From positions 1 to 64,000 of the forward strand of contig LT635915.1 in the NCBI GenBank assembly GCA_900128565.1: DNA of 64,000 nt, read 5' to 3'. The stretch's first letter is position 1. Each line of letters opens with the position of its first letter. The stretch is from Stramenopiles sp. TOSAG23-6 (lineage: Eukaryota; Sar). The position numbers and the translations under genes are program-made. Below are positions 19,474 to 64,000 of this stretch, piece by piece. The notes under the pieces are model-generated. The model had not been told where the DNA came from, did not search any database, and saw nothing but the letters and a program-made list of their open reading frames with translations.

Positions 19474-21849
19474 ATGGGCAATGCAAATTTGAAGACTTTA
19501 GCAGGAGTTTATGATGCTGTATACGTTCGTGGCGACGATGGCCTTGGTAAATGGAGTACTGCAATGCATATTCAACTCCAAATCGCTCAAAATGGTACCT
19601 TTGTATATATAGAAAATGGTTTTGCTAATGACCCACGTGATAGCTTTGACACTGATCTAAGAAAGACCTCTAAAGTTGACGCAACGGATGCAACCCCTTC
19701 TAAAGTTTTGAAAGTTACAGAAATATTGACAGTTGGAATGTATGTTACAAGTTTGGTTGGTACGGGAAAAATTGTGGATATTCGCAACTCTGAAGATGGT
19801 GAAATCGTTGTGGTCCAACTTTCATTTGGGCTAGGTTTTTTCCAGCGCTCTTGTGTAAAAGTGATTCAGCCGTTATCGAATAATACAGACGATATTTCTG
19901 AGATAACTTCTACTGTTGAAACTACTATTGAATCAAATGATGGTGTAAAACTAATGTCAGCGGGTAAGTTTGCTGGAATATCAGATAGAATTCGTGTACT
20001 TGTTTCAGTTAGAGAAGGTGTAGCTGAAATACAAAGAAAAGGCGAATCATTCACAAAGTTAGGACTTGACTGTAATTTGGAAGCAGAAAAAGTTATGGAA
20101 CTTAGATGGCATGATATACCACCATTTGCTGGCGTAATACAGGAATCTGTTTGTGCTTTGAACCCCCCATTTAAAATAAATATACGTGTTGTCAATAAAG
20201 GTACTTCTCTTACGTACAGAAAAGGAAGACTAGCTGTCAAACTTTATAAAACTGGTACAGCTAAATGGGAGACAGAGGTGCAACCTCTATGGAACAAACT
20301 ACAACAGCTTACCGCGACACCTTTGCAGCGTGTTCCAATACCGATTGAGAAGCAATTAACGCTTCCAGGCGCTATTGACCACTATAAAAAATTGATTAAT
20401 TCAATGACAATGTATGATCCGTCGGTACAAGACAACATTGGCCTATTGCGGCAACAACGATCTCTTGAAAGAGACATGGAAATATCTGGTGCACCAGAGA
20501 ATGATATGGAAGACTTAGAAGGTTCTCCATCCAGTAATCTTTTAATTAAGAACCTTGACAAAGGTGGTGAACTGACTTCAGTTGAGGAACTGTGTATCGG
20601 ATTAAATGCATTACCAACAGGTCAGCGCGATACACCTCTTCCTCCTATAACGAGACCGGCACCAGTTAAAAGAGTAGGTATACTAACCTCCAAGAAGATG
20701 GTTGGCGATAGGCTGCTTTTGAACAGTAGAAAGCAACGTAGTAAAAAACGTGCTAAAGATGCTTTAAAAAATGAGAGCCTAGGTAATGTAGTATTACAGG
20801 CTCCACCTAGTTCCTTTGATAGTGTAGGATGGAATTGGAGTTCAAGTGCTATGTCAAGCCCCAAAAATGACACATCTAAAATTGAGTCCCCGATCAATAG
20901 CAACCCATTTGAATTTAATAGTAACACAAACAAAGTCACAAAAACGGATTACACAAATCAACTGAAATCCCCAAATGATGAAACTATCTTTGACGAAACC
21001 AAAAGAAGGTGCAAGACTTTCAAACAGGAACTCCCCGAAGAGAATACTTCCTTGATAGCGAGATCACACGAAGACGCTGAACGAGTCGCCATTGAAGCAG
21101 AAGAAGCTGGAATCAAAGCTTCACATGTTATAACAATGTCGAGTGTATTCACGGATGCTTATAAGGGTATGATTGGTAGAGCTGACGATGTTGTAGGTGT
21201 TTTATCAGGTGTAGCATTTTCGGCTGAGGCTCTTGTAGGATTAAAAAGTAGCAAAAATAGTTTGGAAGAAAATATGAAACAAACCAAAGATGTTAATAAT
21301 AAGGAAAATGCAGACGTAGTTATGACTGTCGAAACTCCCGTACATCCTATTTCGAATAAGCATCTTTCGGAAGACGGTCAAAATATATTCAACAACGAAA
21401 AAAATACAATTTTTGTTGGCGAAAAGTTGGAAGAACTTGTAGAATTAGAAGATACGTGGAAGATGATACTCTCAGAGGAAGAGCGGATTGTCTTCGATAA
21501 CAAAAGGACGGTTCTTCTTCAAGCTTTTGCTGGATGCGGAAATCTTGATAATGCCGAAGTTGCTTTGCCAATTATTGTTGCAGCTTTTCGTTCATTATCT
21601 GCTAGTTTTTTTGGTTATAGTGAGAAGGAAAATATTGATAAAACTGGAAGTGCTGTGTTGACACATGATGAAGGCGAGGTCGCTGAATCATGTCGTTCAT
21701 GGTGGACCGTTGAGTGTATCCATGATATTATTAATGGTGATACCATTCGCGAAGTAGACGCTTGGCACTGGATTAGAGCTGTATATATTCATTGGCGAAG
21801 TGCAGGTTTTTATGCAGACTTCAGCGTACCTCCTTTTTCCGAAAGATAA
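19474..21849 (+). CDS. Uncharacterised 791-aa protein with a possible Tudor/SH3-like barrel
   Basis: I do not recognise the family. The ATG at 19474 gives MGNANLK; Gly2 is present, but residue 6 is not Ser/Thr, so N-myristoylation is doubtful. At about residues 85-130 the pattern VGMYVTSLVGTGKIVDIR followed by EIVVVQLSFG and YVQ-like FFQRSCV looks like a small beta-barrel with a conserved GTGKI turn. Residues about 165-300 form a second ordered region. The middle is Ser/Asn-rich and basic (KKRAKDALKN). The last 150 residues are ordered again and Trp-rich at the end (WWTVECIHDI, DAWHWIRAVYIHWRS). It converges on the IQ protein with an 84-bp gap. Confidence 0.75.
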   Translation: MGNANLKTLAGVYDAVYVRGDDGLGKWSTAMHIQLQIAQNGTFVYIENGFANDPRDSFDTDLRKTSKVDATDATPSKVLKVTEILTVGMYVTSLVGTGKIVDIRNSEDGEIVVVQLSFGLGFFQRSCVKVIQPLSNNTDDISEITSTVETTIESNDGVKLMSAGKFAGISDRIRVLVSVREGVAEIQRKGESFTKLGLDCNLEAEKVMELRWHDIPPFAGVIQESVCALNPPFKINIRVVNKGTSLTYRKGRLAVKLYKTGTAKWETEVQPLWNKLQQLTATPLQRVPIPIEKQLTLPGAIDHYKKLINSMTMYDPSVQDNIGLLRQQRSLERDMEISGAPENDMEDLEGSPSSNLLIKNLDKGGELTSVEELCIGLNALPTGQRDTPLPPITRPAPVKRVGILTSKKMVGDRLLLNSRKQRSKKRAKDALKNESLGNVVLQAPPSSFDSVGWNWSSSAMSSPKNDTSKIESPINSNPFEFNSNTNKVTKTDYTNQLKSPNDETIFDETKRRCKTFKQELPEENTSLIARSHEDAERVAIEAEEAGIKASHVITMSSVFTDAYKGMIGRADDVVGVLSGVAFSAEALVGLKSSKNSLEENMKQTKDVNNKENADVVMTVETPVHPISNKHLSEDGQNIFNNEKNTIFVGEKLEELVELEDTWKMILSEEERIVFDNKRTVLLQAFAGCGNLDNAEVALPIIVAAFRSLSASFFGYSEKENIDKTGSAVLTHDEGEVAESCRSWWTVECIHDIINGDTIREVDAWHWIRAVYIHWRSAGFYADFSVPPFSER

Positions 21850-21933
21850 GAAATTCTGTATGCGTACTAGGGTATTCACAACTATAACTATTTTTTATAA
21901 ATATCAATAAATTAAATTAACGACAGCATTTTT

Positions 21934-24900
21934 TCAAAACTTTGATTGAGTATGTGATACGAAGTTACATTTACAACGAACTTTTCCGCATAGTAAACAC
22001 ATTGGTTGTTTTTTACGAGCAGCTCCTTCGTGAAGCTTTAGAGACCATGCGTGTACTCCGTGATTCAAGGTTTCTTTCATGACCTGATCTGTCCGATTAA
22101 ATTCTTCCCTCCATTTTGGATTTTTCTCTCCTCGCTGTAACTTAAGTTTCCAATTCAAAGCTTGTTTTCGTGCGGACATTAGCTTTTGCCACCTTTCTAA
22201 AATCATTTTCCTTGCAATTATATCCTTCGTAGAAACCGACGGCATTTTGATATCCGGATCTCGATTTGGTGATGGTTTGATATACTTCCCAAGTTTAGTT
22301 AGATGACGTTTAATTGTTGCTTTTCGTAGATCTTGGTCTTGTACACCCCATCTTACTTGCTGTGTTCGAACACGTCGGTCCCATTCTTGGCTAACCCTAT
22401 ATTCTACCTTTGTTATCTCTGATAAGCGAAGCATTTCTGTCTCACGAACATATTGCATTTCACATTCATCTAAGTCCATTTCCAATTCTTCTACCTGCAG
22501 CATCCATATTTCAATTTGCTCTTCGAAATTTCTAAGCTGAAATCTTTTACTTAGTAACTCTTCTGCACTCATCGCAGCGCGGTTCTGGAGTTGTTCCCAC
22601 TCACGCTCAAGTGCTTCCATCCAGCCTCGCTCAATATCTTCGTCTGTTAACTTGTCAATTTCATCTTCAACATCAGGTATCCTCTGCTGCATAGTTCTTC
22701 TGTGTTTCCGAAGACTTGATATTTGCCGCTCCACACGTCGTTTTACACGTCGAGCATACTTCAGGTCTTCTTGAAGATCAACACATTCATCCCTTATTTC
22801 TTGACCATCTTCTGTACATTCACGCAAGACACGCAAACCCCATTTTCGTTCTTGCAGAAACCTCTTTTCCTTTACCGCTCTTCTGGCGTACATACACCTT
22901 ATGCCACGTTGAAGTGTCATTGCAGCTTGTGATGCTAGACCTCTCGATACACGTATTTTAACGAAGAAATCACGCCGAGCAACCCATCCGCGATATAGAG
23001 CTTGTAGCGAAGCTGCAGCAAGACCCTTGTGTTGTAATGCCATCTTTTCCCATAGTTTAATCATGGTACGTTTTGCGAGAATCTGGCGCCATAAACCTTG
23101 CATCTTTGTTGCAGCGATGTTCTTATGGATGGTGTCACGAATTATTTTTCGAGTTAAATAACTACGGTACTTCGCTTGAACATGTAAAACTGCCGGAAGC
23201 ACAACATGATGGTGCCGTCGATATTGATATCGCTGGAATCGTAGGCATTTTGCAATATAACATCTTGCCATAGCTTGAAGCCGTGTTGCTGTTACTTCTT
23301 CCAGCTGTTTACGGCGTACTTTCCGTGCTTTCCTTCTGCCTAAGTACCCATTAAACAATCTTGATATCAATGAAGCATTTTTTGCCACACACTTCAACAT
23401 CGCTATTCTTTTTCGACCAAGGTAACTTCTATAAACTTTTTGAAGTAACTTAATTGCAGGCATTTCTTTTTTGCAATGATAAGCTTGCTTTGCCATTCTT
23501 TTCAAAGCTATCCAACCCAAATAGCTTCTCCATGCCTTCTGTATGATACACACTGAAGGGTATATAAAGACGTCAAAATATCGTCTGGCTATAACACGCT
23601 TAGTTTCATTTCTACCGCGATATCCACGCACGTATCTTTGAATTGTACGCGCAGCACGACCATAAATTTTCTCTCTTTCTAACCATTTCCGTGTTAATCT
23701 ACCTCGTATCATAGGCTGAATGAAGAGAACTGCCTTAAAAAATGCCAGTAATAGTGCCTTTGCTTGTTTCCTACTTTGCTTCGAACGATATGTTGACGAA
23801 AACATCACTGCAGCTTTAATCTTTAGGTATCGATAGTGCTTGAAAAAAACTCGAGCTTTATATGCTCGATATACTCTTTGTATTGTGAGGGTATGTCTAT
23901 TCCTTACAAGCCATTTTCGGACTTGCACGTGTGACTGCCGTCGTCTAAATAAATGTTGAAGTGATTTTGCTGCTAAAATGTACTGTCTGTCACTCTTGGA
24001 CATATTTTCATACTCGTTAATGGCGTTTCTACCTCGTGTAGTATTTTCATTGCTTGTAGTTGGTCTTTTAGCCTCAAAGATTGATTGTGCTTTCTTCACC
24101 CGACGAGACTTGTGCAAAAGTATTTTTTGTTGCTTTAGTTGTTTGGAAATGAGATCTTTAGCAACTTTACTCAAGCTATGATAAAAGACACCTACTTTTG
24201 AATTTTCACTATTATTTTCACTGTTTGTTACTGTTGATCCATGACGCGATATTTGCTTATATAGTTGTGACGATGTCGCGGAGCCGGAACGAGATGATAC
24301 TTCCCGGGTTAATTCCTCTTGAACTTCTATTTTTCTAAGAGCTTCCGGGTCCATTAGAGCAAGAAGTTCTTTTTTCCCTATTTTCCCCTTGACACTTTCA
24401 AGTTTTCCTTCTTCTAAGTGACTTTTTCCGAGGTGATGCTCGATTAAATTTCCATATTTACGTGGTTTCCACTCTGCCTTAGTCTGAAGTTTCAAGCTCA
24501 AAGTGAACCCAAAATTCCTAAAGTGAGGCAGATTTCGAACATTACTACCTACAATTCCAAATTTTCTCCAACTAGAGCACTGAAGCATTGATAAATCTTG
24601 GTGCGTAACTTTTATTTTTTTATTTTTCATAGGTTTTGGTTTTCTAGGATACGCTTTAACTTTCCAAACTTGCTTCATAAGTTCATTAAACACGATTTCA
24701 CATCGATCATAATAGTTTCTATATGAAAAGAAATCGCTCACAAGGTGAATATTAAAGGCTGTGGCTTTATGGTAAACTGGATCTGAATCTTGCGGTGGCT
24801 TATCTCGAGCTTTTGCAGCTTTTTCGCATGCACGATAACATTCTACTTCTGAAGTATAACTTCCGACAAATCGCTCAACAAACTCACCGCCTGAGTTAGG

Positions 24901-25686
24901 GCAACTCCATATTCGCCCTTCCCATCGTTGCGTAGTTTTGTTCTGTATTACTCCTCTATATCTCATTTTGTTATTCCCAATCCGCGATCTGTTCATTTCA
25001 TAATAACTTTGATTTTCTACTTTAATATACTCAATTTGTGGAATCACATTTGTTATCGTATTTTCTATTTCTTTCCGCAAATCTATTAGAAGTCTTCCAG
25101 TTTTACTTCTTCTTACATTGAAGCTATATGGATGATTTTTTAGTACTTTGATTTGTGCATTGTCTATTAGAGTTTTCGTATCATTTTTTGATAGCCTATT
25201 GGTATTATGGTTAGTTGTTCCTTTACTTTCACTTAGGGTTAGGGTTGTTCCTTTACTTTCACTTACACCATCACTAATATCTAATATCACTTCTGAACTT
25301 CTACTTTCATTAATATGATGTTTAAATAACATATCCCATGGAAGCGGTGTTTTCCTCAGGTGTTCTAGTGTCTGTTCTCTTGTTTCAAAGGCTAAGTCTA
25401 CATTATTGAGAGCAACAAGCCAATCACCGATAATAAGTCTATCACTAGCTTCTACAACACCTTTACCCATTGCAACGGGTAGCCATTTACCTATACAAAG
25501 TGTGGAGAATTGATCGGACCAGTCAAATGCAACACCAATAGGAAAACTCTGAGCCCTAATTAATACGTCGTGTAGTTGGGTTGACATAGGTGGTTTCTGG
25601 CCTGGGTACATTTGTTCCATTCCGTTGTTATCTGTGGTTGTTTTTTTGTGCGTCTCTGTGTCTGAAGTGTCAATTGATCTATTCAT
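21934..25686 (-). CDS. PDZ-like / AP2-like / multi-IQ motif protein
   Basis: 1250 aa. Near residues 40-125 is a PDZ-like module (IGDWLVALNNVDLAFETREQ). At about 240-295 a segment reads like an AP2/ERF DNA-binding domain: MRYRGVIQNKTTQRWEGRIW, then RFVGSYTSEVECYRACEKAA, with the YRGV start, the WEGRIW strand and a helix. From about 575 to 935 roughly twelve IQ motifs follow (for example TIQRYVRGYRGR, LLQKVYRSYLGRKR, SLQALYRGWVARRD), which bind calmodulin or light chains. A charged coiled coil spans about 940-1100 and the tail has CLLCGKVRCKC, a possible zinc knuckle. An in-frame 30-bp duplication (25214-25265) encodes SESKGTT twice. Multi-IQ coiled-coil proteins are common in cilia and cytoskeleton; the AP2-like part is unexpected there. 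Confidence 0.8.
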   Translation of the reverse strand: MNRSIDTSDTETHKKTTTDNNGMEQMYPGQKPPMSTQLHDVLIRAQSFPIGVAFDWSDQFSTLCIGKWLPVAMGKGVVEASDRLIIGDWLVALNNVDLAFETREQTLEHLRKTPLPWDMLFKHHINESRSSEVILDISDGVSESKGTTLTLSESKGTTNHNTNRLSKNDTKTLIDNAQIKVLKNHPYSFNVRRSKTGRLLIDLRKEIENTITNVIPQIEYIKVENQSYYEMNRSRIGNNKMRYRGVIQNKTTQRWEGRIWSCPNSGGEFVERFVGSYTSEVECYRACEKAAKARDKPPQDSDPVYHKATAFNIHLVSDFFSYRNYYDRCEIVFNELMKQVWKVKAYPRKPKPMKNKKIKVTHQDLSMLQCSSWRKFGIVGSNVRNLPHFRNFGFTLSLKLQTKAEWKPRKYGNLIEHHLGKSHLEEGKLESVKGKIGKKELLALMDPEALRKIEVQEELTREVSSRSGSATSSQLYKQISRHGSTVTNSENNSENSKVGVFYHSLSKVAKDLISKQLKQQKILLHKSRRVKKAQSIFEAKRPTTSNENTTRGRNAINEYENMSKSDRQYILAAKSLQHLFRRRQSHVQVRKWLVRNRHTLTIQRVYRAYKARVFFKHYRYLKIKAAVMFSSTYRSKQSRKQAKALLLAFFKAVLFIQPMIRGRLTRKWLEREKIYGRAARTIQRYVRGYRGRNETKRVIARRYFDVFIYPSVCIIQKAWRSYLGWIALKRMAKQAYHCKKEMPAIKLLQKVYRSYLGRKRIAMLKCVAKNASLISRLFNGYLGRRKARKVRRKQLEEVTATRLQAMARCYIAKCLRFQRYQYRRHHHVVLPAVLHVQAKYRSYLTRKIIRDTIHKNIAATKMQGLWRQILAKRTMIKLWEKMALQHKGLAAASLQALYRGWVARRDFFVKIRVSRGLASQAAMTLQRGIRCMYARRAVKEKRFLQERKWGLRVLRECTEDGQEIRDECVDLQEDLKYARRVKRRVERQISSLRKHRRTMQQRIPDVEDEIDKLTDEDIERGWMEALEREWEQLQNRAAMSAEELLSKRFQLRNFEEQIEIWMLQVEELEMDLDECEMQYVRETEMLRLSEITKVEYRVSQEWDRRVRTQQVRWGVQDQDLRKATIKRHLTKLGKYIKPSPNRDPDIKMPSVSTKDIIARKMILERWQKLMSARKQALNWKLKLQRGEKNPKWREEFNRTDQVMKETLNHGVHAWSLKLHEGAARKKQPMCLLCGKVRCKCNFVSHTQSKF

Positions 25687-26142: not shown

Positions 26143-28221
26143 ATGTTTCGACATATTCAGGTTAATTGTCTTCGAAGAAGCTTTCATGTTGCACCTTTTT
26201 TCCATCCACAAATGCGATATTCTGTGATGAATAATAATAGATTGCTTTATAGAATGATCAGTATGAATACACTTAGTAAGTTGGAGTTTTTATATATGGT
26301 CTCGCGCAACTCGTCTCATAAAGTTCATTTTCCGAGAAAACTTACTTTTGCCCTCCAACCTTCCAAAACATCATCTATATTAGAAAATAAGACAAATCGA
26401 TTCATCAATACAATATCTAGTCGTAGATGGGATAGACAGAAATTACTGAATGAATCAAAAGATAAACGGAAACATAGTAGTAGTGAATGTACTAAAGAAA
26501 TCACTCAAAAGCCTGAAAGCTCTACACCACTGAGTATGGCACGCTGCAGCGCTCTCCGACGTTACTTAGATGAAGGAGACGAAGACGGTGTTGCACGTGC
26601 GTACAATTTGTTTGATCGTCTTCTTGCTGCTGATGAAGCTAATGTCTATCAATGTAATGAAATTGTAAGATATTATCGCTGGAGTCCAGAAGCAATTAAC
26701 GAAGTGTTGTGCTTAATGAAGTGTAAGAATATTTTTCCAAATGTTGCTACATATACAATGCTTATGCAATCGTTTATTAGAGTAGGTAACTACAAAGAAG
26801 CAAATACAGTGTTGAATGTTATGAAGCATAATAATATGTCAGAACACGAAATATTGACAACNGAGATTTTATCAAAACGAGCGTATGGTTCACAAAATAG
26901 TTATTCCGTTCTTCATACACTGCTGCAGAGGTTTGATAGAGATAGTAAATTACATGCAAATATATTTTTCATGTGTCTTTTACAAAATGGTCTATTACAT
27001 TCTTCTCATGTTGAACTAATGTTTTCTAAATGCATGAGTGTAGAAGAAATAATTACTAGAATTGAACAGATAAAAAATGCAAATGAAACTGCCGTGTTGA
27101 ATACAGAGTGTTACAATATACTTATCACGAAATATCAGCTCTTAGGACAATATAGTAAAGCAAAAAGTGTAGTAAATAATGAAATGTATGCTTTAGGAAT
27201 CCTACCGAATGATGCCACATATAAATCATTAAAAAGAAAAAAAGGTGTTTTGTCGCAACTTCGTATAGTAGAGCTTAGTCGATTGTGTGATCCACGACTT
27301 GATAATATTGCTATAGATGAAGCAATGAGACTTTTTGCTGCTTTATTTGTTTTAGATGAAACATGTGAACAATTGAACCAACATATGGCTACTTTATGTA
27401 GTACGTGTACGTTGACTGAAGCATTAATTCGAGAAATTATACTTGCTGCAAATAATATTGGGTCATCTCCAAGTCTAGATAAATTTAGTGAATTTAGAGA
27501 TCAAATAGTAAAGTGTGGGAATGTTGATGCTGTACAGTCATTTGATAATGTTATAGATACGGGAAATATTAATCATTTGAAACTGCAATATAATGAATGT
27601 ACAATACAACATTCATTTGAAACGCCGATAGCAATAGCTGATTATCCTTATAATTCTTTACGTAATATAATTAATGATGTCCATGCGACTCAATATAAAT
27701 ATTTGTGTATTGATAAATGTAAACTAAATAGTAGGAATATCATGAACAATAATAATACAAACAAAATTAATAGTAAAACCATTAAAAATAGAAAGAGTAG
27801 AAAAACCATAAAAAATAGTAAGAGTAGAAAAACAAGTAAACACCAAACAGAAACAAATACTAACACTTTGAATCAAGGTAATTATATGACACATGTAATC
27901 AACAAAAGTAGCAAATCAAGTGATACGGTGAAACAAATGCGTCAAAGACATGAAAATATTGAAAATAATATTAATTTGAAGTATACAAATACCGTTAGCA
28001 AATATAATACACCATTGAAAACTAAATCTGGTTTCTATACAAAAGAGAATTCAGACACCAAGAAAACATTGATCAAAGTATTAAATAAAAATAAAGCATT
28101 AATGCGTCGATTATCATATGTGGAGAGACAACGAAAACGACATGCAGCATGGGTGAAACAATCTCGTTCTAAACGTAGATACTACCACAGACATAGTCAA
28201 CAACATAAGAATAAAGTATGA
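26143..28221 (+). CDS. Pentatricopeptide-repeat protein, probably mitochondrial
   Basis: 692 aa. The first 100 residues are rich in Arg, Ser and His with almost no acidic residues (MFRHIQVNCLRRSFHVAPFF), typical of a mitochondrial presequence. PPR-type helical pairs appear near residues 200-240 (NVATYTMLMQSFIRVGNYKE) and 325-370 (TECYNILITKYQLLGQYSKA), with weaker ones between. PPR proteins bind organelle RNA for processing or translation. The C-terminal 170 residues are Lys/Asn/Arg-rich, low-complexity, and contain a 27-bp in-frame duplication (27781-27834). An N at 26862 hides one residue. The target transcript cannot be inferred. Confidence 0.8.
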   Translation: MFRHIQVNCLRRSFHVAPFFHPQMRYSVMNNNRLLYRMISMNTLSKLEFLYMVSRNSSHKVHFPRKLTFALQPSKTSSILENKTNRFINTISSRRWDRQKLLNESKDKRKHSSSECTKEITQKPESSTPLSMARCSALRRYLDEGDEDGVARAYNLFDRLLAADEANVYQCNEIVRYYRWSPEAINEVLCLMKCKNIFPNVATYTMLMQSFIRVGNYKEANTVLNVMKHNNMSEHEILTXEILSKRAYGSQNSYSVLHTLLQRFDRDSKLHANIFFMCLLQNGLLHSSHVELMFSKCMSVEEIITRIEQIKNANETAVLNTECYNILITKYQLLGQYSKAKSVVNNEMYALGILPNDATYKSLKRKKGVLSQLRIVELSRLCDPRLDNIAIDEAMRLFAALFVLDETCEQLNQHMATLCSTCTLTEALIREIILAANNIGSSPSLDKFSEFRDQIVKCGNVDAVQSFDNVIDTGNINHLKLQYNECTIQHSFETPIAIADYPYNSLRNIINDVHATQYKYLCIDKCKLNSRNIMNNNNTNKINSKTIKNRKSRKTIKNSKSRKTSKHQTETNTNTLNQGNYMTHVINKSSKSSDTVKQMRQRHENIENNINLKYTNTVSKYNTPLKTKSGFYTKENSDTKKTLIKVLNKNKALMRRLSYVERQRKRHAAWVKQSRSKRRYYHRHSQQHKNKV

Positions 28222-28316
28222 TATTGCAAACTCTGTGATTTAATTATAATAATAAATCTAAATTTTCATAGATTAGAAAAAAATGTAGGATTTAACTTTT
28301 CTATGTTGATATTTTT

Positions 28317-29904: not shown

Positions 29905-30303
29905 ATGGACCGCATTGCTGCTACTGATTCAGAACAAATAAACACACCGGTGCGAGAGATAGATCAAAAGGCAATCAATGAGTTTTCTAGAAACAATTCG
30001 AGGTTGAGTGATTTACAAGCAGACACAAAAGAGAAGAAACAGTTACTCGAGACCCTGAGTGATGCACAGGATGAGATTGCTCTTGTTGACGATGACGGCG
30101 AATCTATCAAACTAAAATTGGGTGATTCATACATTAATGTTGATGAAGATGCGGCAGATGAGGTACTCTCCAAGCGTATCGATGATTTACAGTCATCTTT
30201 AGACGATTCTAGTGAAGAGATTTCTGCACTGCAGAAGCGCCAGGCGGTTCTAAAAAAACAACTTTATGCTAGATTTGGTACTGCGATCAATCTTGAGAAG
30301 TAA
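29905..30303 (+). CDS. PFDN4: Prefoldin subunit 4 (beta-type)
   Basis: 132 aa, the usual size for a beta-type prefoldin subunit. Two long amphipathic helices (residues about 18-55 and 90-128) flank a beta hairpin, DDDGESIKLKLGDSYINVDE, whose LGDSYINV matches the family's LGE/D-x-F strand. Prefoldin is a cytosolic hexamer that hands actin and tubulin to the CCT chaperonin. No intron. Confidence 0.9.
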   Translation: MDRIAATDSEQINTPVREIDQKAINEFSRNNSRLSDLQADTKEKKQLLETLSDAQDEIALVDDDGESIKLKLGDSYINVDEDAADEVLSKRIDDLQSSLDDSSEEISALQKRQAVLKKQLYARFGTAINLEK

Positions 30304-53878: not shown

Positions 53879-56800
53879 ATGCCGCAGGGAAAACCAAAGT
53901 CAGTTCTACAGGTACTTAAAGATGAGTTAGAAGCTGCGCGTGAGAAAATAGAAGATCGTGATCGTCTTGCACAAGAAGTTTTAGCTCTCAAGGTCAAGTG
54001 TGCTAATGCGGGTGAGTTAGAAAAAGCTATGATTGCAATGAAACGGGAAATGGAGGAAGCAAATACTAGAGCTGATACCATAGAAAATAGAATGTCTGAT
54101 GTTCAGAAAGAAAAGCTAAATTTGGAGGAGCAACTAAAAACTATCGACAAAACACTGAAAATGAAACTTTATGCTATTCGACGTCTTGAGAAAAACATGT
54201 CATGGGAAAAACGCGCTTTAGAAAGTTCGAAGAATAAGGTTCGGGAAATGGAGCGCAAGAATAAAATGTTGGATGCAAGTGCTAAACTTGATCGAGAATT
54301 AAAAGAAAAGATGGAAGCTGATCTTAAGGATCAAACAGGACAGGTCACTAGAGAGCGTGCACTTCGTTTGCTGCAGTTACACAAACACGAACGAGTTGTC
54401 CGTAAGCAACAGGAACTTATAAATACAGCAGTTGGATTACCAGAAAAAGCAAAACTGTATGAGAAACTTGTTGATGCCATGAAACAAGAAATGATTATTA
54501 TGAAACAAGCTATTAAAGTTGAACAAGGAATGAATAATTCTCTAGAAGAAGAATTAGAACGTAATACAATAAAGATTGCGAACTTAGAGTCTCGCAGTAA
54601 AGATATGGAACGAGTAATCCGCAAACGAGCCCGGGAAAACCAAGAATGGCGTGATCGGTTTGATAATTTACGTAGCAAATTTGAGTGGATGCAGTCAAAA
54701 CTTGTTAGTCGACTCCGTGGAATGAATTCGGCATCAGAAGTAGCTGAAGTAATGGCAGTAACTGCTCCTGCAATTCCATCAATGCTTGACTCTGACTGGG
54801 GTTTTGGAGACGGAAGAAATAGAGATCGTTTAGATGCCTTACCAAATTATATGAGCAATACACATAGTCACCAACAGCGTATTCGTGGTAAACCACCCCA
54901 AGAAGTTATGTCTATCCTGGAAAATGAATTATTGGGTCATCAAGAGACATTGCAAAATCTTAGACATGAATTAGACGAACGAATTAAAGAGCATTCTGCC
55001 TCAGAACTTCGCCGTGAAGCATTAGTAAAACAGGTTGAAGTCAAGCTCCTTGAAGTTAATCAGAAAAAAGAAATTCGGGACGCAGCAAATATAGACCTAG
55101 AAACTCTCGTAAAAAAATTATTTGATGTTCGAGCAGAAGCACGACAAAGGACAGATTTGCTTCGTCGACGACGTGTACGAGAACAAGAGGAAAAAGATCC
55201 ATATGCAGCACCTAGAAAATTAAAGCGAGGGTACAAACTTCCAGATACTCACACAGCTGCAATTAGAGTACAAGCTGCGAGTCGAAGTCGACATGCACGT
55301 CGATCATTTGTAGAAAAAATGGAAACTCTTCAAACAAATCTTCAGTCTGAAATTGATGAACAAAAACGTGTATGTGCTGAATTTCCAGGACAAATTGAGA
55401 GACTTGAGGAAGTTTTATCTGGGATGGAAACAAAACTGACTCTACAACGTGATGCCACTTTTGAAATAGCAGGTAAGATTCGAGAATTGAGAGTAAAACG
55501 CATTCCTCGCGAAGAGAAACTCCTCGAAGCCAAGGCAGAGGGGTTACAGGATGCTAAACGACAAGTAGATCAGGCAAATATGAATTTTGAATTTGGTTTA
55601 GCTGATACACTTACATCAACAATAGAATACGGTTTACAGGGTCATATGGGAATCCCAAATGGAAATTTAAGTTCAATAGTAATACCTGAAGACACCGCAG
55701 TGTCGATGCAAAGCAAATTTACATACTCTGCGAAAAGCGCTGCCAAAGTAGATGCAGCAATCGCTAATTTAACTGAATCAATAGCAAAAGAACGGGGGTG
55801 GAATTCAGGGGGGCATGGAGCACCTAGATATGGATTGAAACGTAGTTTACCTGGAAAGCCCTTAGCATTTCCAGCCCTACTACCTCCTCGGGTAAGACGT
55901 AGTTTAAGAGATCACGAACGCCAAGTTCTTTTGGATGCAATGGTAAATGGTGAATTTGATGAAGAATGGGATGAAAATGATGAGGATGGAGATATAATTG
56001 ATAACAGCATGTCAGTATATAGCCGCAATGTCTCACGTCAGTCATCTCGAATGACATCACGAATGCCAACATCGCGGACATCAATTAGTGCTGAAACAAA
56101 CATACATTCTTCAATGGAACAGAATTTGGCTAATGACAGCAATGAATACAATTTCAGCAAACAATCACTTTCAGCAGATAAAGCCCATGCCTTGCTTCGC
56201 AATATACTTTCGGGTCCAGAATCTCCATGGGGTGTTGATGACTCATTTAATAGATCTGAACACAAAAGTGTAACAAACTTCAGTACTTTGCCAAAATTAG
56301 GTGCCATCAAATATAAACGACCAGAACGAGAAAATATCGATGATGGAATAAGTGTTTCAACAAAAGATGGATCTGGTAATATAAGTGCTAGATCTGGTAA
56401 TATAAGTGCTAGATCTGGTAATATAAGTGCTAGATCGAGTAGCGTCTTGAGTATAAAATCAGGCGTTGGTTTTCGAGGTAGGTCAAGTAACAACTTCAGT
56501 AGAAAAGCATCAACCCGTAAAAAAACACCAAAGTCTCTGCGTTCGGTATCAAGGAAGAGTAGTACTTATGGTTCCAGAAGATCAGCTGCAAAAGCATCAT
56601 TTGGAAGTGAAGGAACTTCAGCCAACAACAATTTCACTCAAAGTACAAACCGAAAAGGTTCAATGTTTCTTGCTGGCCAAGCAAAGAGTGATTATATGGT
56701 TAACGCAGATGACATTCAACGTCAGTTACCTGTTGATACACGAGGATCTGCGAAGATGGTAGTATCTAGAATTAGAAAGTCTATACAGGAAGCAGAGCTC

Positions 56801-56887
56801 TCAAAAAGAGAGATTGTCCCGGAGGACGAAGTATCAAATAGTACAAGTGGAACGAGTATCCAGCAAGCACAAGAAGTAAAAATATAA
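53879..56887 (+). CDS. Long coiled-coil protein with an IQ motif
   Basis: 1002 aa. From residue 8 to about 290 and again from about 345 to 570 the chain is a heptad-rich coiled coil (KDELEAAREKIEDRDRLAQE start). A single IQ-like motif, AAIRVQAASRSRHARRSFVE, is near 460. The last 300 residues are Ser/Arg-rich and disordered, with a 21-bp x3 in-frame repeat (56370-56432) encoding GNISARS. Such proteins serve as cytoskeletal or ciliary structural elements; there is no enzymatic motif. I know no specific family. Confidence 0.8.
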   Translation: MPQGKPKSVLQVLKDELEAAREKIEDRDRLAQEVLALKVKCANAGELEKAMIAMKREMEEANTRADTIENRMSDVQKEKLNLEEQLKTIDKTLKMKLYAIRRLEKNMSWEKRALESSKNKVREMERKNKMLDASAKLDRELKEKMEADLKDQTGQVTRERALRLLQLHKHERVVRKQQELINTAVGLPEKAKLYEKLVDAMKQEMIIMKQAIKVEQGMNNSLEEELERNTIKIANLESRSKDMERVIRKRARENQEWRDRFDNLRSKFEWMQSKLVSRLRGMNSASEVAEVMAVTAPAIPSMLDSDWGFGDGRNRDRLDALPNYMSNTHSHQQRIRGKPPQEVMSILENELLGHQETLQNLRHELDERIKEHSASELRREALVKQVEVKLLEVNQKKEIRDAANIDLETLVKKLFDVRAEARQRTDLLRRRRVREQEEKDPYAAPRKLKRGYKLPDTHTAAIRVQAASRSRHARRSFVEKMETLQTNLQSEIDEQKRVCAEFPGQIERLEEVLSGMETKLTLQRDATFEIAGKIRELRVKRIPREEKLLEAKAEGLQDAKRQVDQANMNFEFGLADTLTSTIEYGLQGHMGIPNGNLSSIVIPEDTAVSMQSKFTYSAKSAAKVDAAIANLTESIAKERGWNSGGHGAPRYGLKRSLPGKPLAFPALLPPRVRRSLRDHERQVLLDAMVNGEFDEEWDENDEDGDIIDNSMSVYSRNVSRQSSRMTSRMPTSRTSISAETNIHSSMEQNLANDSNEYNFSKQSLSADKAHALLRNILSGPESPWGVDDSFNRSEHKSVTNFSTLPKLGAIKYKRPERENIDDGISVSTKDGSGNISARSGNISARSGNISARSSSVLSIKSGVGFRGRSSNNFSRKASTRKKTPKSLRSVSRKSSTYGSRRSAAKASFGSEGTSANNNFTQSTNRKGSMFLAGQAKSDYMVNADDIQRQLPVDTRGSAKMVVSRIRKSIQEAELSKREIVPEDEVSNSTSGTSIQQAQEVKI

Positions 56888-57051: not shown

Positions 57052-57777
57052 TTATCTTCGTTTTCCTTTTGGACTAACTTTTTTTTTTTTTTCTGGAATC
57101 CTTTTTTCTACAACACGTAAATATTCACTGAATGATAGCTCACCATCACCATCATTCGTCTTTAAATCTTTACCAAATAACTTTTGTAGTTCTGACTCTA
57201 GTCGGTCTTTCCCGTACCTCTGATAAAGCATTGTCATTGTTTCATCTATAGAAACAGCGCCACTATTATCCTTATCATACATCATAAACTGTACCACATT
57301 AAACAGCTGGAAAGGTTCCAAGCCTGTCGTATCGGACATATTCCGTTCAAACATTAACTGGAATTCTTCCCAATCAACACAACCATCCAAGTTTTCATCA
57401 ACCTCCCAAATCATTTCCTCAATTTCCTGTCGCTTCTTTGTGACACCTAAGGTTTTCAGTGCTTCGTTTATGTCTGAGACTTTCACTTTAGCGTCACTTG
57501 AAGCTATAATTTTTTCTATACCACTCTTTATTGTTGCTACTTCATATTGCAGTTGATCATATTTTGAATCTAGATCAGCATCACTCATTTCCTTTCCATT
57601 ATCGTCATGGATCTTCAATACATTTGGACGTTTCCGATAGCTCTGTATTTTTTCAAGCCACTGCAATTTTGGTTTCAACTCGACGTGTTTTCTTTCCTTT
57701 TCTGCAAAGTTGCATAAACGAGTAAAAACTCGTTCCAATTCTTTCTGCTCATTTGTCCATCCCGATTTATTGGACAT
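57052..57777 (-). CDS. EF-hand calcium-binding protein
   Basis: 241 aa from the first ATG; the frame is open to a TTG at 57891. Two canonical EF-hand loops are present, DENLDGCVDWEE and DKDNSGAVSIDE. A third, near the C-terminus (TNDGDGELSFSE), has Thr in place of the first acidic ligand. A degenerate hand precedes them (SDAKVKVSDINEAL). The N-terminal ~100 residues are charged and helical and the tail is Lys-rich. The overall shape resembles axonemal EF-hand proteins, but the exact family is uncertain. It shares a 344-bp promoter with the Rab gene. Confidence 0.85.
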   Translation of the reverse strand: MSNKSGWTNEQKELERVFTRLCNFAEKERKHVELKPKLQWLEKIQSYRKRPNVLKIHDDNGKEMSDADLDSKYDQLQYEVATIKSGIEKIIASSDAKVKVSDINEALKTLGVTKKRQEIEEMIWEVDENLDGCVDWEEFQLMFERNMSDTTGLEPFQLFNVVQFMMYDKDNSGAVSIDETMTMLYQRYGKDRLESELQKLFGKDLKTNDGDGELSFSEYLRVVEKRIPEKKKKVSPKGKRR

Positions 57778-58121: not shown

Positions 58122-58873
58122 ATGGATGACCTTGATGATTATGACGTACAGGTAATTAGTTTTTCTTCAATAATTCTTTTGCATATATTTTCTCCGCGTT
58201 TGAGCCTAACAGAATCATCTATATTCCGTTAATTACATTTCATTTTCTTATTTTACTTCCCTTACAACCTATTTTTACAATTTAGGTGAAACTGCTAATG
58301 ATTGGTGACTCAGGAGTCGGAAAGACGTGTTTGCTTCTACGATATGCACAGGATGCATTCTCAAAAACATTTATTACTACGATAGGCATCGACTTTAAGA
58401 ACAAACTACTGGACTATAAGGGCAAAAAAGTACGCTTACAGATATGGGATACGGCAGGACAGGAACGATTTCGGACAATAACTACTTCATATTTTCGGGG
58501 TGCTCAGGGAATTCTTTTGGTCTATGATATAACTGATCCAAACAGTTTCACAAATATCCATACTTGGGTATCTCAGATTGACCAGCACGCAGATAAGAGT
58601 GTGACAAAAGTTTTGATTGGAAATAAATGTGATGTTGCCAGCCAAAGGCGAGTAAGTATTGAGGAAGGTGAGAAAATTGCGAAGAAGTATGGCATGGCGT
58701 TTTTTGAAACCAGTGCGAAAGATAATATCAATGTAACAGAAGCATTTATGCAAGTTGCTCACACAACAGTTGATAGAATCTTAGAAGGTGGAATTGTAGA
58801 AAGGAGACAAACACGCCATACACAATTTTCACCTGGTACAACATCGGGAACTAAAAAATGTGCTTGTGGCTAA
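58122..58873 (+). CDS. Rab GTPase, Rab8/RabE-like; two exons
   Basis: Exons 58122-58151 and 58286-58873; joining them gives 205 aa starting [10 protein letters not shown]. The intron (58152-58285, 134 bp) begins GTAATT and ends ATTTAG. Motifs: P-loop GDSGVGKT (17-24), switch [36 protein letters not shown] and ETSAK. The switch regions are closest to Rab8/Rab10/Rab1. The C-terminus ends CACG, with two cysteines for geranylgeranylation in a CxCx arrangement. Role: vesicle traffic, probably post-Golgi exocytosis. Without the first exon the protein would begin inside the first beta strand, which supports the splice. Confidence 0.93.
58152..58285 (+). other. Spliceosomal intron in the Rab gene
   Basis: 134 bp, GT..AG, phase 0, directly after codon 10. 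The 3' end is pyrimidine-rich (CCTATTTTTACAATTTAG). Confidence 0.9.
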
Positions 58874-59062
58874 ATTGTATAAATTGTCTGCTTCAGATTT
58901 AGAGATATACTATAATATTTCCCCAGAAATGATTTGTCTTGCCCCCATATAAAATATGCGCACTAAATCTTTCTTCGCGGGATGCATTGTTTACTTTTAC
59001 ATGAAATATGTATTTATTGTATAGCAAATTTATTCGTTACATATTTTGGTTCAAAGCAATAA

Positions 59063-61138
59063 TTATTTAATGTTCCCTTTTGGGCCTTTGCAAGAAAAAA
59101 TAAAAATATTTTGTAAACGTAAGCGGCTTTTTGTGTTTTTTTCCCGTAACCATTGTGTTTTCATTGCCAGTGGAGCTGGTAAAATAGATGCCACCCAGAA
59201 TGAGAATAAATGTATACATATATCATTACGTATTCCATAAAAATTATCTTCATTGAAGGATTCATCAGTAAAATTCGAAATACATGAATGAATACTTGAT
59301 AGCTTTTCAAGTCCTTCAGGAAGATGTGACACTGAAGATAGTAACCACTTTGGAGAGGTATTATCTATGTCACATAGTCTACTATAGATATTATATATGT
59401 CTCTAGATTCTTCAGCAGACAAACTCGTTTTTGATTCATCTATTGCATTCTTCTCAGTATAAAAAGTAGGTTCTCTAATAGTGACTTGTGCAGATTTAGC
59501 TCCAAATGACATTGGTTTATACCATTCACGATGAATATCAAATATAGATAAACCTCGTACAAGTATACGACACTGACCATCAGTACGAATATCTTCAATA
59601 CTTATTACTTCAACCATTGTGCCTACACCAGTGTCATCGTTATATGTACACAAATCATTCAATTCTGAAATACTATTTTTGTCGAGGATTTCATCATTTC
59701 TAGTTTCCTCTGTAATTTCAAGTTCAACACCCAAAGCAACTCCATTTTCTATACAATCACGGGCAATGATTCTATCACTATGAGAGACTATATCAATATA
59801 ATGACACAAACCAGGATAAATAACAGACGTACTATACATTGAGCTTGTAGCTTGTACTTTTAGTAAATTAATAGTTAAATCCTGACATAATGGAGAGTCC
59901 AATTTTTGGTTATTAGTTTCGTCATTGTCCTCCAGGTATGTAAATCTCTCATATATGTTATCATCACTATCTTCTCTTTCAAAATCATAATCCTCTTCAG
60001 ATGCCCACAACTCTTCAAGTTTCTTATCATAATCAATTTCATCTTCATCATGATCATCCATTGAATTGTGCTCCTGTATATCGTTGAAGTTTTTTTCAAC
60101 TGTATTATCAAAATCTAATCGGTCTAAAGCAGATAATATATCTTGAGATGGAACGTGAGGTGTATTAGCTACATACTTTGTACTATTGTAATTATTTTGA
60201 GATCTAGATATCGTTTCAGATGTACTACTATGTGAATTTATTTGAAACATGAGTGCAGCAATGTCTTCGTATATGTGAAGTTTATTCCACTCCACATCAC
60301 CATAAATTGATTGTACTAATTCAGTTAAAAAACCCGCTGTTGGACTAGGTAAAGCAATTCCGACAGCTCCTTCTTTACAAACATGTTCACCAATGAAAAC
60401 ATTACCACCATATGAAACATCAAATTTATCACTGTTAATCGACTGGGACACCCCACAAACTGTAGCAGAATATGGATACATCGTTGATATTTGATCAATC
60501 AGTTTGTCATAGCAGAAGGAATTTGTACCAAAAAATAAAAAATGTGGACTACATATTTTGTCAAAAGATGTGGAAATATTTGACACTATTTCTGAAGGTA
60601 AAATAATTTCCCCTTCCGTTGTTAGTGGTATTAAACTATTCTCTTGAACATCCTTGATGCATAAAGGTTCGTTAGTTTGATCTTTAGTCTCTATTTTTGC
60701 TGCAGTGATTTGAACAAATCTTGTCGCTGCTGGACCTTCAGTAAGAGACTGTGTGTCAGTTCCAACAGCAAGCCAACCCTTTTTAGTTAATCGCCGACTA
60801 ACTAATCCCAAAGCATTTGGAAAATTTGTATGAACAACACATAATGATGGTTCGACATGGAAAAAACTATCAACATGGTTGATGCAATCATCAAGTGCGG
60901 CTTCTACGCTTGGATAGTGACTACGTGTTGTGAAGCATGTTGCTTCTGGCGTAGATGTTTTATTGACCATATTACGCATAGTAGATGACACTTGAGGATT
61001 TACGCTACCTCTATTTACCATATTTGCTGACGAATTTGATGTATGCTGTGCTATTGTGTTTTTCTTGGATTTTGGAGCGTTCTTTAGCGTCTCAAGAAGA
61101 TTTCCTTTCAACAGACGTGCTGTCTTTCTGCGAGCCAT
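59063..61138 (-). CDS. FIST_N / LON-substrate-domain fusion protein
   Basis: 691 aa. Residues about 75-290 look like a FIST_N sensory domain: EPSLCVVHTNF, LAVGTDTQS, then PHFLFFGTNSFCYDKLI and the closing KEGAVGIALPSPTAGF. After an acidic Asp/Glu linker (about 360-420), residues about 435-570 match the Lon N-terminal substrate-binding (LON) domain: SVIYPGLCHYIDIVS, VGTMVEVISIEDIRTDGQCR and ILVRGLSIFDIHREW. The helical end SFWVASILP with REKNTKSRLRLQ matches the closing helices of LON/cereblon-type proteins. Neither an ATPase nor a protease follows. FIST is found with signalling enzymes and in F-box protein FBXO22, and LON occurs in cereblon, so a substrate receptor is plausible. Confidence 0.7.
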   Translation of the reverse strand: MARRKTARLLKGNLLETLKNAPKSKKNTIAQHTSNSSANMVNRGSVNPQVSSTMRNMVNKTSTPEATCFTTRSHYPSVEAALDDCINHVDSFFHVEPSLCVVHTNFPNALGLVSRRLTKKGWLAVGTDTQSLTEGPAATRFVQITAAKIETKDQTNEPLCIKDVQENSLIPLTTEGEIILPSEIVSNISTSFDKICSPHFLFFGTNSFCYDKLIDQISTMYPYSATVCGVSQSINSDKFDVSYGGNVFIGEHVCKEGAVGIALPSPTAGFLTELVQSIYGDVEWNKLHIYEDIAALMFQINSHSSTSETISRSQNNYNSTKYVANTPHVPSQDILSALDRLDFDNTVEKNFNDIQEHNSMDDHDEDEIDYDKKLEELWASEEDYDFEREDSDDNIYERFTYLEDNDETNNQKLDSPLCQDLTINLLKVQATSSMYSTSVIYPGLCHYIDIVSHSDRIIARDCIENGVALGVELEITEETRNDEILDKNSISELNDLCTYNDDTGVGTMVEVISIEDIRTDGQCRILVRGLSIFDIHREWYKPMSFGAKSAQVTIREPTFYTEKNAIDESKTSLSAEESRDIYNIYSRLCDIDNTSPKWLLSSVSHLPEGLEKLSSIHSCISNFTDESFNEDNFYGIRNDICIHLFSFWVASILPAPLAMKTQWLREKNTKSRLRLQNIFIFSCKGPKGNIK

Positions 61139-61501
61139 TATCTCTAATCTTTCCCAAAGTAAAGAAGAGACTGATTATTATGTAAATATACTATACTACT
61201 TGAGTAAAATGTGTATGCAATGAATGAATTCTTTAGTTTACTCAATAAGAACTATTGTTCTAAAACCGTGTAAAGTACCTCCAGGTACAGCTCATATAGG
61301 TACTGTATATGTAACTCTTATTGGAATTACCAATTGAATTTTTTTAGGCACTAGGCCTATACTAGAATATGCGCTGAATCGAAAAATTCAAAAGGAAATT
61401 AGCTATTTCCGAAATTCCGATTTGCCACTTTTTGATGTTATATTTCTTGTACCTTTGATTGGATGTTGTTATTGATATTGACTTTTAGTATCACATACAA
61501 C
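61139..61501. promoter_or_regulatory. Divergent promoter, FIST-LON and mitochondrial carrier genes
   Basis: 324-363 bp, depending on the carrier start. Inverted GTACC/GGTAC words (near 61276 and 61284) and a run of short palindromes lie between about 61270 and 61370. No known element is identifiable. Confidence 0.4.
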
Positions 61502-62489
61502 ATGCAGGCTGCTAACGATGAACCGTTTTGGGTGAAGTTTTTTGCAGGTGCAATGGCAGGATCAATAGGTGAGGTCTTTACAATGCCTTGTGAAGTAATG
61601 AAAACAAGAATGCAACTTGCCCAAGGTTCAATGTGTGCTCGTGGGCGTAACTTACAGGTAATAACAGGCATCGTACAAAGTGAAGGACCTTTAGCGTTAT
61701 GGAAAGGAGTATCACCGGGAGTTGCACGGCAGGTCATTTACTGCGGAGGGAAATTGAATATCTATGAACCAGTTCGTGACTTTTACGCGACTTTATTTGG
61801 AAATAACTCCCTCTTTGGTAGTCTTTTGGCTGGTGGAACAGCTGGAGGACTCTCTAATCTTTGTTCAAATCCTGCTGATCTATTGAAAGTTCGATTCCAG
61901 GGTGATATTACCGGGAAATTGAGTGAAAGAGGTCTCATAGCATGCTGGAGAAATTGCATTGTTAACGATGGCGTTTTGTCTCTGTGGCGGGGTTGTTCTC
62001 CAACAGGTATGTTTTATTTTTTATTTCATGTACTATTTCGTTTTTATCGTCAAGTAATATTTAATCATAAGTTAATGAGTATCCTTCTTGATATATTTCG
62101 ATACAATAGTTTTACGTGCATTTTTCATCAACTCCGTGGAACTTGGTGGCTACGATTTGAGTAAAAAGTGGTTATTATCATATTTTCCAGGTAGTGACGA
62201 TAATATTTGGCTACACTTCTCGAGTGGTGCTATATCAGGAGTCTTGGCAGCATTTATTTCGCTACCCTTTGATGTTATTAAATCACGAATGATGATAAGC
62301 GGATCACAATTCACATCTATTGGCGACTGTGTTCGTGTCACAGTTAAGCATGAAGGTTTCGGTGCATTTTTTAAAGGGTTTGTACCAGTGGCTAGTCGTA
62401 TTGTTCCTTTCAATATAGTTCAATTTATAGTATTTGAGAGAGTACGAGCATTTCTTTCAAAGGATGTAAATAATTTGTACTCAATTTAA
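61502..62489 (+). CDS. Mitochondrial carrier (SLC25), UCP/dicarboxylate-carrier group; two exons
   Basis: Exons 61502-62006 and 62110-62489; the 103-bp intron starts GTATGT and ends CAATAG. The joined protein is 294 aa, the family's usual size; an upstream in-frame ATG at 61463 would add 13 residues. The three signature repeats are MPCEVMKTRMQ, NPADLLKVRFQ and LPFDVIKSRMM. The sequence around the splice, CSPTVLRAFFINSVELGGYD, reads like the dicarboxylate/oxoglutarate carrier and UCP group. It sits in the inner membrane. The substrate is probably a di- or tricarboxylate or an uncoupling-type anion, but is not determined. Confidence 0.92.
62007..62109 (+). other. Spliceosomal intron in the mitochondrial carrier gene
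   Basis: 103 bp, GTATGT..AATAG, phase 1, splitting a Val codon. Reading through it would end the protein at 62164 and lose the third carrier repeat. Confidence 0.92.
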
Positions 62490-62533
62490 AAAACGTTATA
62501 ATTTTATATTATTAAATAAATAGTACTTTTAAA

Positions 62534-64000
62534 TCAAACTAAATGATCCGCAGTTTCCGCACTCTCTTTGGTCTCCTTATACTTATTCGGAACGTTACCA
62601 GTATTCATTTCATGAGCTTCCTTCAATTGTTTCTCTTCGTACCAAGTAAGTAAATCCGAGTTAGTCGTTGTTTTGGCTTCGGGCGGCAGACGGAGAATAT
62701 TCGCCTCTTCTGGTTTACTTTTCCATTTTCCAGGGAATAAGAAACCTTGTTGATTTGGTGCATATATTTCACCTTTCTCTACGTAGTTGTCTCGAGCTTC
62801 TTTTGCTTCTCTTTCTCCAAGCGAAGGGTTTCTAGTATATTTTGATACANCACATAGTTTTTTTTCATCATCATATATACAAGCACCTACAATAGCAAGA
62901 CATACAACGTCACTAAGCAAATCTCTATCTTCAACGGTGGTACATATTTCAGCTCCAGAGCATGTGTTTTCTAAATAGTCGTACACGCATCCTCCAGCAG
63001 CATTTTCACATGCTTCAGCTGTATCAAGATTTTTGACAGTATCACATACAGATCCTCCAGCCCATATAATTCCAGGGGTATCATGAAGTTTTGATCCTAC
63101 TATAACACATTTATTTGTACCTTTATCAAATATACACATTTCTTCAATATCACATAAAGTATCAGTTTCAATTGTAGAGCATATTTTCTTTTCCTTTTCA
63201 GTTTTTTCTTTTTGTCCTTTCTTTGATTTTTCCATTTCTTCATTTTTAGCATCTTCTAGAGCTACTTCAGTATTATTTTCTGCGATAGCTTCATATGCAT
63301 CTACACATTCCACTGTTACCTCAGGTGATGCTATACCAAGAAATAGTGCATTTAATAACATTTTATTGTTCTCATTTACACAGACAAACATCTCTGTGAT
63401 TTGCATACTACCATTACTCATTGCACCAGCATTTGTTGGATTACCATTTGAGTCCACCCGTGCAGAATTGTTTGTTGCACCTTGATCTTCAAATCCAGTG
63501 CCATGGTTCGTATCCATATCCCACATAGGTTTACCTTTATCCAGACTAGGATCCATTAAGTGCTCATTCTTTACAGTATGTGGAAGGTCTGACAAATTTA
63601 TTTCTGCCGATGTTTCCAAATAGACAGTCTTTGCATTAAAACGCTTCATATAAGGATCATTTTGTATATTTTGCACCATTGTCGACATTTTATTTTGTCG
63701 CTCCCATTCTTCAGCTAATCCATCTAAACCTAATAAATCTTTCTCCGTGTTTGGATGTTGCTGTACCCAAATATTTTTGAGTTCCTCTTTACTTTGAAAA
63801 CGAAATGAATCTTTTGGTTCAGGCGGGATGCATCCTTTTTTTCCAGAGTTGTCATCTGAATATATTTCTGTACATTTTAACACAATACAATCCCATTTAC
63901 TCTTTGGAGTTTTAAATTTCTTATTACATGCTGCTCTCTGTTCTTTGGCAGTTTTAGATCTTTGATTATCTCTTTTCAACAACGCTTCATCTTTTTTAGT
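62534..64000 (-). CDS. Cysteine-repeat protein, 5' end cut by the window edge
   Basis: At least 488 aa; the frame runs open to base 64000 with no ATG, so the N-terminus is missing. Residues over about 63185-62850 form three related Cys-rich units of about 35-45 aa, each opening with ICSTIE, VCDTVK or ICTTVE and closing with CIFDKGTNKC, CVYDYLENTC or CIYDDEKKLC. This spacing resembles small disulfide-rich extracellular repeats. The upstream half is acidic with another four Cys near the cut end. The tail is charged (PPEAKTTTN region). An N at 62850 falls beside the last repeat. I do not recognise the family. A secreted or lumenal protein is likely if a signal peptide lies beyond the edge. Confidence 0.75.
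   Translation of the reverse strand, partial: TKKDEALLKRDNQRSKTAKEQRAACNKKFKTPKSKWDCIVLKCTEIYSDDNSGKKGCIPPEPKDSFRFQSKEELKNIWVQQHPNTEKDLLGLDGLAEEWERQNKMSTMVQNIQNDPYMKRFNAKTVYLETSAEINLSDLPHTVKNEHLMDPSLDKGKPMWDMDTNHGTGFEDQGATNNSARVDSNGNPTNAGAMSNGSMQITEMFVCVNENNKMLLNALFLGIASPEVTVECVDAYEAIAENNTEVALEDAKNEEMEKSKKGQKEKTEKEKKICSTIETDTLCDIEEMCIFDKGTNKCVIVGSKLHDTPGIIWAGGSVCDTVKNLDTAEACENAAGGCVYDYLENTCSGAEICTTVEDRDLLSDVVCLAIVGACIYDDEKKLCXVSKYTRNPSLGEREAKEARDNYVEKGEIYAPNQQGFLFPGKWKSKPEEANILRLPPEAKTTTNSDLLTWYEEKQLKEAHEMNTGNVPNKYKETKESAETADHLV

Follow-up and report, generated by a model that had tools for sequence, protein, structure and literature searches.

The first 64,000 bases of contig LT635915.1 of Stramenopiles sp. 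TOSAG23-6 (hereafter the window; the contig, C373 in our numbering, has 65,862 bases and belongs to an assembly of 8.03 Mb in 408 contigs) contain a run of 24 non-overlapping genes, from 19474 on the plus strand to 62534 on the minus strand, with 23 successive strand switches. Judging from the predicted genes, we consider it moderately probable that the whole of this compact genome tends towards alternation, with the run as an extreme case; such a genome would favour shared two-way promoters and close convergent gene ends. On the other sampled contigs, alternation is found in approximately 71–80% of neighbour pairs, insofar as intron calls made without RNA hold.

Strand alternation in the window contig

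Strict strand alternation of 24 genes from 19474, as claimed in a preliminary description of this DNA, was borne out by a list of open reading frames (ORFs) of at least 40 amino acids and by a choice of genes by codon score. The run uses plain ORFs and is independent of intron calls. Its continuity hinges on two small genes, at 29905–30303 (prefoldin, E = 7.6e-15) and 36879–37253 (ankyrin repeats, E = 2e-16), both included in the 40-amino-acid list and omitted from a list limited to 150 amino acids; a search of 24 candidates with the protein of the latter gene yielded no homologue at E ≤ 0.001, despite its Pfam ankyrin match. Between plain ORFs the divergent gaps measure 230–520 bp and the convergent gaps 68–369 bp. 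The ranges given originally (230–456 and 44–210 bp, respectively) are obtained after two splicing changes: a first exon of the Ras gene at 58122 would shorten one divergent gap from 520 to 344 bp, and splicing of the mitochondrial carrier gene, which would then end at 62489, would shorten one convergent gap from 369 to 44 bp.

On either side the run stops at a same-strand pair, and its starting point was chosen post hoc. The left boundary is the pair 14615+/19474+, with a gap of 1019 bp, and the right boundary is the pair 62534-/65267-, just beyond the window edge, which rests partly on an ORF (65267–65698) whose COA3-like match is weak and below the Pfam cut-off. A further same-strand pair to the left consists of a UBR1-like gene and a deoxynucleoside kinase (dNK) gene (1101-/9407-). 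Over the whole contig, 27 of 30 pairs alternate. For a run such as this one in 30 pairs of random strand the probability is approximately 5e-7, and random strands are rejected for the run. Within the same-strand gap at the left edge we further observed a tandem repeat of 189 bp (2.6 copies, 18547–19036, from a repeat scan), which was found at one place only in the assembly by a search method that may miss repeats.

Neighbour orientation on other contigs

Elsewhere in the assembly we sampled parts or all of eight contigs, one of which (C408) was then excluded, and five 3.2-kb loci on further contigs that came from a family search. This arbitrary choice, made with no random draw, comprises 12 other contigs or parts, nine of which yielded neighbour pairs. 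A count of unspliced ORFs on these contigs, which gave many tandem pairs, was rejected as the final count because the contigs contain introns with the strong donor GTAYGTTTT and exons were being counted as genes. Genes were instead called with a splice-aware gene finder, calibrated on an artificial chromosome carrying 22 window genes in a single orientation. Among the six intron penalties tested, -17 kept all 22 genes separate, -15 left 20, and the loosest left 8–9 of 22; no opposite-strand gene was called in this one-strand control in any of 12 runs. Two fusions, of the UBR1-like gene with the dNK gene and of the last gene of the run with its neighbour, were split by hand with the help of Pfam.

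At penalty -17, the strictest calibrated, alternation is seen in 62 of 79 pairs in total, in 39 of the 56 that lie outside the run (p = 0.0023) and in 35 of 49 on the other contigs (71%, p = 0.0019). Penalty -16, which was used for the work on gaps and motifs, gave 62/78 overall, 39/55 outside the run (p = 0.0013) and 35/48 on the other contigs (p = 0.0010), and looser penalties gave 33/38 (-11) and 33/41 (-13) on the other contigs. The loosest intron model, with 33 of 35 pairs alternating there (94%), was rejected, since artificial tandem genes become fused under settings of this kind. Adjacent genes thus lie on opposite strands in more than half of the pairs at the calibrated setting, a result that depends on the intron calls.

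Alternation therefore extends beyond the run, but not as a basic unit of the genome without exception, as had been suggested: a strict rule is rejected in view of genuine tandem pairs. Distinct Pfam domains mark the two partners of the tandem pairs UBR1-like/dNK, ING/YEATS and kinase/HSP70, the last with a 70-amino-acid opposite-strand ORF of doubtful reality in between, and a complete ubiquitin-L40 gene is followed by another plus-strand gene. When 17 same-strand gaps were examined for hidden opposite-strand genes, only C120 7917–8111 scored well (16), and this ORF had no Pfam match above the cut-off. A few other such gaps hold weaker opposite-strand stretches, the best of which (11) lies in C400 and adjoins a same-strand coding stretch that is much stronger. 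The four same-strand pairs of C400 probably belong to one giant gene (approximately 1–31555, about 10,000 codons) whose product would be a surface protein with a TRP-like membrane end, as suggested by a PA14 match that begins in mid-profile at the start of an ORF and is followed by PAN, laminin-G and FG-GAP matches and the TRP-like end. Merging these pairs would bring the other contigs to 35 of 44; this correction touches tandem pairs only and is therefore biased towards alternation.

False introns that fuse tandem genes on the other contigs could in principle create alternation. Loose penalties do fuse the artificial tandem genes, the settings used also produced the two fusions that were split by hand, and some long weak introns kept at -16 (C389 1153–2760; C200 758–2562) are possible false fusions. 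We nevertheless regard such a gene-model artefact as improbable, given that 35 of 49 pairs alternate at the very setting that keeps all 22 artificial genes apart, that the run itself is built on plain ORFs, and that the mid-profile start of the PA14 match suggests that some apparent tandem pairs are in fact exons.

A second technical explanation, that inverted chimeras from single-cell amplification have flipped genes, is extremely improbable. Such artefacts seem to occur here: in contig C408 (26,092 bp) an 8.3-kb segment is present in three copies that are 100% identical, the middle one being inverted, which is probably an amplification or assembly artefact. Chimeras would, however, be expected to break genes and to leave copies, whereas each switch of the run lies between two complete genes, with gaps of regular length, and a tandem-repeat scan of the window, which does not cover inverted repeats, shows short arrays only. 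C408 was left out of all counts because of its three identical copies of one segment; its unique part would add two alternating pairs of three, or four of four if a 67-amino-acid gene, called in one copy only, is accepted.

How exceptional the run is depends on the rate assumed. With the rates found elsewhere, 23 switches in one 31-gene contig have a probability of approximately 0.001–0.02 (0.07–0.09 at penalty -11); at a rate of 0.73 it is about 0.002, or 0.005 when the uncertainty of the rate is included. A genome of approximately 2,500 genes would be expected to hold about 0.5 (rate 0.73) to 3 (rate 0.80) such runs with contig ends ignored, and fewer in short contigs. The low probability at the rate of 0.73 favours a locally exceptional region, for example one of intron-poor housekeeping genes, with only a mild bias elsewhere, as does the comparison of 27/30 pairs in the window contig with 35/48 on the other contigs at -16. 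Introns point the same way: of 47 strong GTAYGTTTT introns chosen (60–320 bp), 44 lie outside the window contig and 3 inside, although this contig makes up about a quarter of the analysed sequence, so that intron density seems uneven. Still, the difference in alternation does not reach significance (Fisher p = 0.09; p = 0.34 with the four C400 pairs merged), and under-detected introns would lower the rate of the other contigs. We hold a purely local explanation to be rather unlikely; the run appears to be the conspicuous end of a bias present throughout the genome, to which regional factors may have added. Strong-donor introns were seen for instance in C389, C388, C340 and C300, and C389 also carries a divergent pair of ribosomal protein S8e and ubiquitin-L40 genes with a 232-bp gap (19503–20993).

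Intergenic gaps and promoter models

At penalty -16 the median gap is 318 bp for divergent (n = 30), 133 bp for convergent (n = 32) and 390 bp for tandem neighbours (n = 15). Divergent gaps range from 166 to 749 bp between predicted start codons. By length, a tandem gap corresponds to one full divergent gap together with half of a convergent one. Resampling predicted a tandem median of 397 bp (324–491) if a single gene requires the entire divergent gap, and of 234 bp (192–288) if either divergent gene occupies a separate half of it; the observed median is 398 bp on 12 of 16 gaps and approximately 386 bp on all 16. For the set of 12, the four C400 gaps (94, 160, 202 and 363 bp) were dropped and the gap 62534/65267 was added.

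Four motifs occur at higher density in divergent than in convergent gaps, which holds for the window contig as well as for the other contigs. The self-complementary TAGCTA occurs in 10 of 30 divergent gaps versus 1 of 32 convergent gaps, TTGACC in 12/30 versus 1/32, and GTAACTG in 7/30 versus 0/32; for GCGC, 21 of 25 occurrences in divergent gaps fall within the middle half. One central two-way promoter per divergent gap fits these predicted gap structures. The bidirectional promoters proposed earlier are hence consistent with the gap lengths and find some support in the motifs, with a counterweight in the tandem gaps, to which we return below.

These observations suggest how a bias towards alternation might be maintained. 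Divergent neighbours would share one promoter-sized unit of approximately 300 bp, that is a common open-chromatin region with initiation in both directions, and convergent neighbours would end within approximately 130 bp of each other. A tandem junction would cost a full promoter plus terminator (approximately 390 bp), compared with an average of approximately 225–245 bp for alternating junctions, and would expose the downstream promoter to read-through. Owing to this cost and exposure, tandem arrangement may be disfavoured, yet not forbidden, in a genome under pressure for smallness. Shared chromatin need not imply shared regulation.

A number of points weigh against a genome-wide tendency based on shared promoters. 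The size of the effect depends on intron calls that have no RNA support: on the other contigs alternation falls to 33/50 at penalty -19 (p = 0.016) and 33/53 at -22 (p = 0.049), and with introns in effect forbidden to 33/62 (53%, p = 0.35). Tandem pairs, which at the calibrated setting are present but make up less than half, then reach an ordinary frequency (29/62); the refuting outcome named in the preliminary description, tandem pairs on other contigs at ordinary frequency, is borne out in part. The sequence analysed amounts to approximately 251 kb, a small share of the assembly. Tandem and divergent gaps do not differ significantly in length (390 versus 318 bp, Mann-Whitney p = 0.24); only the additive comparison separates the promoter models. 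The motifs were picked after a scan of all 6- and 8-mers, and an enrichment of CACGTG was not reproduced on the other contigs. Tandem gaps, moreover, are poor in the motifs (TAGCTA 2/15, TTGACC 1/15, GTAACTG 1/15), indicating either that tandem promoters differ or that some tandem gaps have no promoter.

The post hoc start, the same-strand pairs flanking the run and the 33/62 obtained without introns would also suit the alternative that strands are random and a striking stretch was selected. Against this stand the probability of the run itself in 30 random pairs and the 35 of 49 pairs on other contigs at the calibrated setting, and we consider chance highly improbable. At the other extreme, two-way promoters might be the default, with about nine in ten true pairs alternating genome-wide and one-way promoters exceptional; most residual tandem pairs would then reflect exons not recognised as such, small genes that were missed, or recent insertions. 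We regard this stronger version as unlikely. If true, it would mean clearly stronger alternation than that reported for the stramenopile Ectocarpus. Our preferred interpretation remains a genome-wide tendency of which the run is an extreme stretch.

Gene content, lineage and relation to known genomes

The genes of the window contig are eukaryotic, and the contig is nuclear. A plus-strand protein kinase gene with a C-terminal kinase domain (14615–18454), in tandem with the gene at 19474, ends the run leftward. The 24 genes of the run follow, here in order and starting on the plus strand. The first encodes a protein of 791 amino acids with no Pfam match (19474–21849), and the next an IQ-motif protein (21934–25686, minus), a PPR protein (26143–28221, plus), a protein of 445 amino acids with no Pfam match (28317–29654, minus), a prefoldin subunit (29905–30303, plus, Pfam) and a WD40 protein (30514–32877, minus). 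Gene 7 (33152–34981, plus; 609 amino acids) has no Pfam match and is followed by genes for a PH and FYVE protein (35166–36560, minus), the ankyrin-repeat protein (36879–37253, plus, Pfam) and a MutS homologue (37370–40429, minus). The divergent partner of the MutS gene (40740–41408, plus) has no Pfam match of its own; among its relatives, a small number carry a GRAM-domain name or score. Its matches gave no gene order in relatives for this pair. Genes 12 to 15 encode a Lon C-terminal-like protein (41518–42930, minus; E = 4e-5), a CBS and TPR protein (43249–45636, plus), a TMEM70-like protein just under the Pfam cut-off (45723–46538, minus) and a sulfotransferase (46769–49060, plus).

COX11 (49129–49971, minus) and a pseudouridine synthase (50233–52044, plus) come next, followed by a D-serine dehydratase-like protein (52125–53597, minus), a protein of 1002 amino acids with no Pfam match (53879–56887, plus) and an EF-hand protein (57052–57777, minus). 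In the Ras GTPase gene (58298–58873, plus) the Pfam match starts at profile position 4 on residue 1, and a short first exon at 58122 is possible. A gene for a protein with a LON substrate-binding domain (59063–61138, minus) precedes the mitochondrial carrier gene (61463–62489, plus), whose unspliced ORF ends at 62164 and which has a probable intron at 62007–62109 with the donor GTATGTTTT. Gene 24 (62534–64000 within the window, minus) passes the window edge; its ORF extends on the contig as far as 64885 and is followed by a same-strand ORF (65267–65698).

Alignment of the MutS protein with the EukProt protein GSMAST32 gave 825 identical positions in 972 aligned columns, 142 of the remainder being gaps. 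Because the two are nearly identical, gaps aside, the genome is very probably that of a MAST-3 stramenopile; this lineage rests on the GSMAST32 label, and the lineage letter is unsettled. The EukProt model lacks 142 residues in about ten pieces, all of which are open reading frame in the window (37370–40429), suggesting spurious introns in the EukProt annotation. The assembly is very probably of the type found in Seeleuthner et al. 2018 (PMC5778133). A scan of viral contigs with MutS gave no relative, and a phage search with the 33152–34981 protein found none. No Rfam match at the gathering score was obtained in the 144 kb searched, and no tRNA in the window or in 22 loci scanned.

Among stramenopiles, the brown alga Ectocarpus is reported to show a strong tendency of adjacent genes to lie on opposite strands, with shared nucleosome-depleted regions in divergent gaps below approximately 600 bp (PMC7784034). 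Many divergent pairs and short shared gaps are common to both genomes, with a median divergent gap of 409 bp there and 318 bp here. The genomes differ in degree: in Ectocarpus 61.7% of the genes flanking start-site gaps are in divergent pairs (PMC7784034), whereas roughly the same measure gives 60/75 (80%) in the MAST-3 genome, or 38/53 (72%) without the run. They also differ in the median tandem gap, 2293 bp there (PMC7784034) versus approximately 390 bp here. Expression of divergent partners in Ectocarpus shows almost no correlation (Pearson 0.042 and 0.054; PMC7784034). Since that genome has a similar layout but lacks co-expression of divergent partners, the co-regulation proposed for COX11/pseudouridine synthase and dNK/CobW is unsupported; the latter pair (9407–11748) in any case lies outside the 24-gene stretch.

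Bidirectional promoter pairs of eukaryotes are defined by divergent starts less than 1 kb apart, and all 30 divergent gaps here, measured between predicted start codons, are below this limit. Such promoters are, however, described as pairs, whereas here divergent and convergent neighbours take turns over 24 genes in a row. The dinoflagellate Amoebophrya likewise has a lineage-wide rule of neighbour orientation in a compact protist genome, but the opposite one: approximately 98% of genes in two strains and 83% in a third lie in co-oriented blocks (PMC7789003). No long same-strand gene blocks of the dinoflagellate type were found in the 251 kb analysed, in which neighbours mostly alternate. In term searches, neither 'orientation' nor 'strand' occurred in the main text of the MAST-genome papers PMC5778133, PMC12614181 and PMC8163842.

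Together, these comparisons present the layout as a stronger case of a kind already known from the distantly related Ectocarpus. In practical terms, strand alternation could serve as a prior when genes are predicted in such genomes. Should the genome-wide rate be confirmed, this lineage would offer a clean case for the question of why adjacent genes alternate, be it through compaction, an always-two-way promoter or the avoidance of transcriptional interference. Alternation in a heterotrophic stramenopile distant from the brown algae would then point to an old stramenopile feature or to repeated origin.

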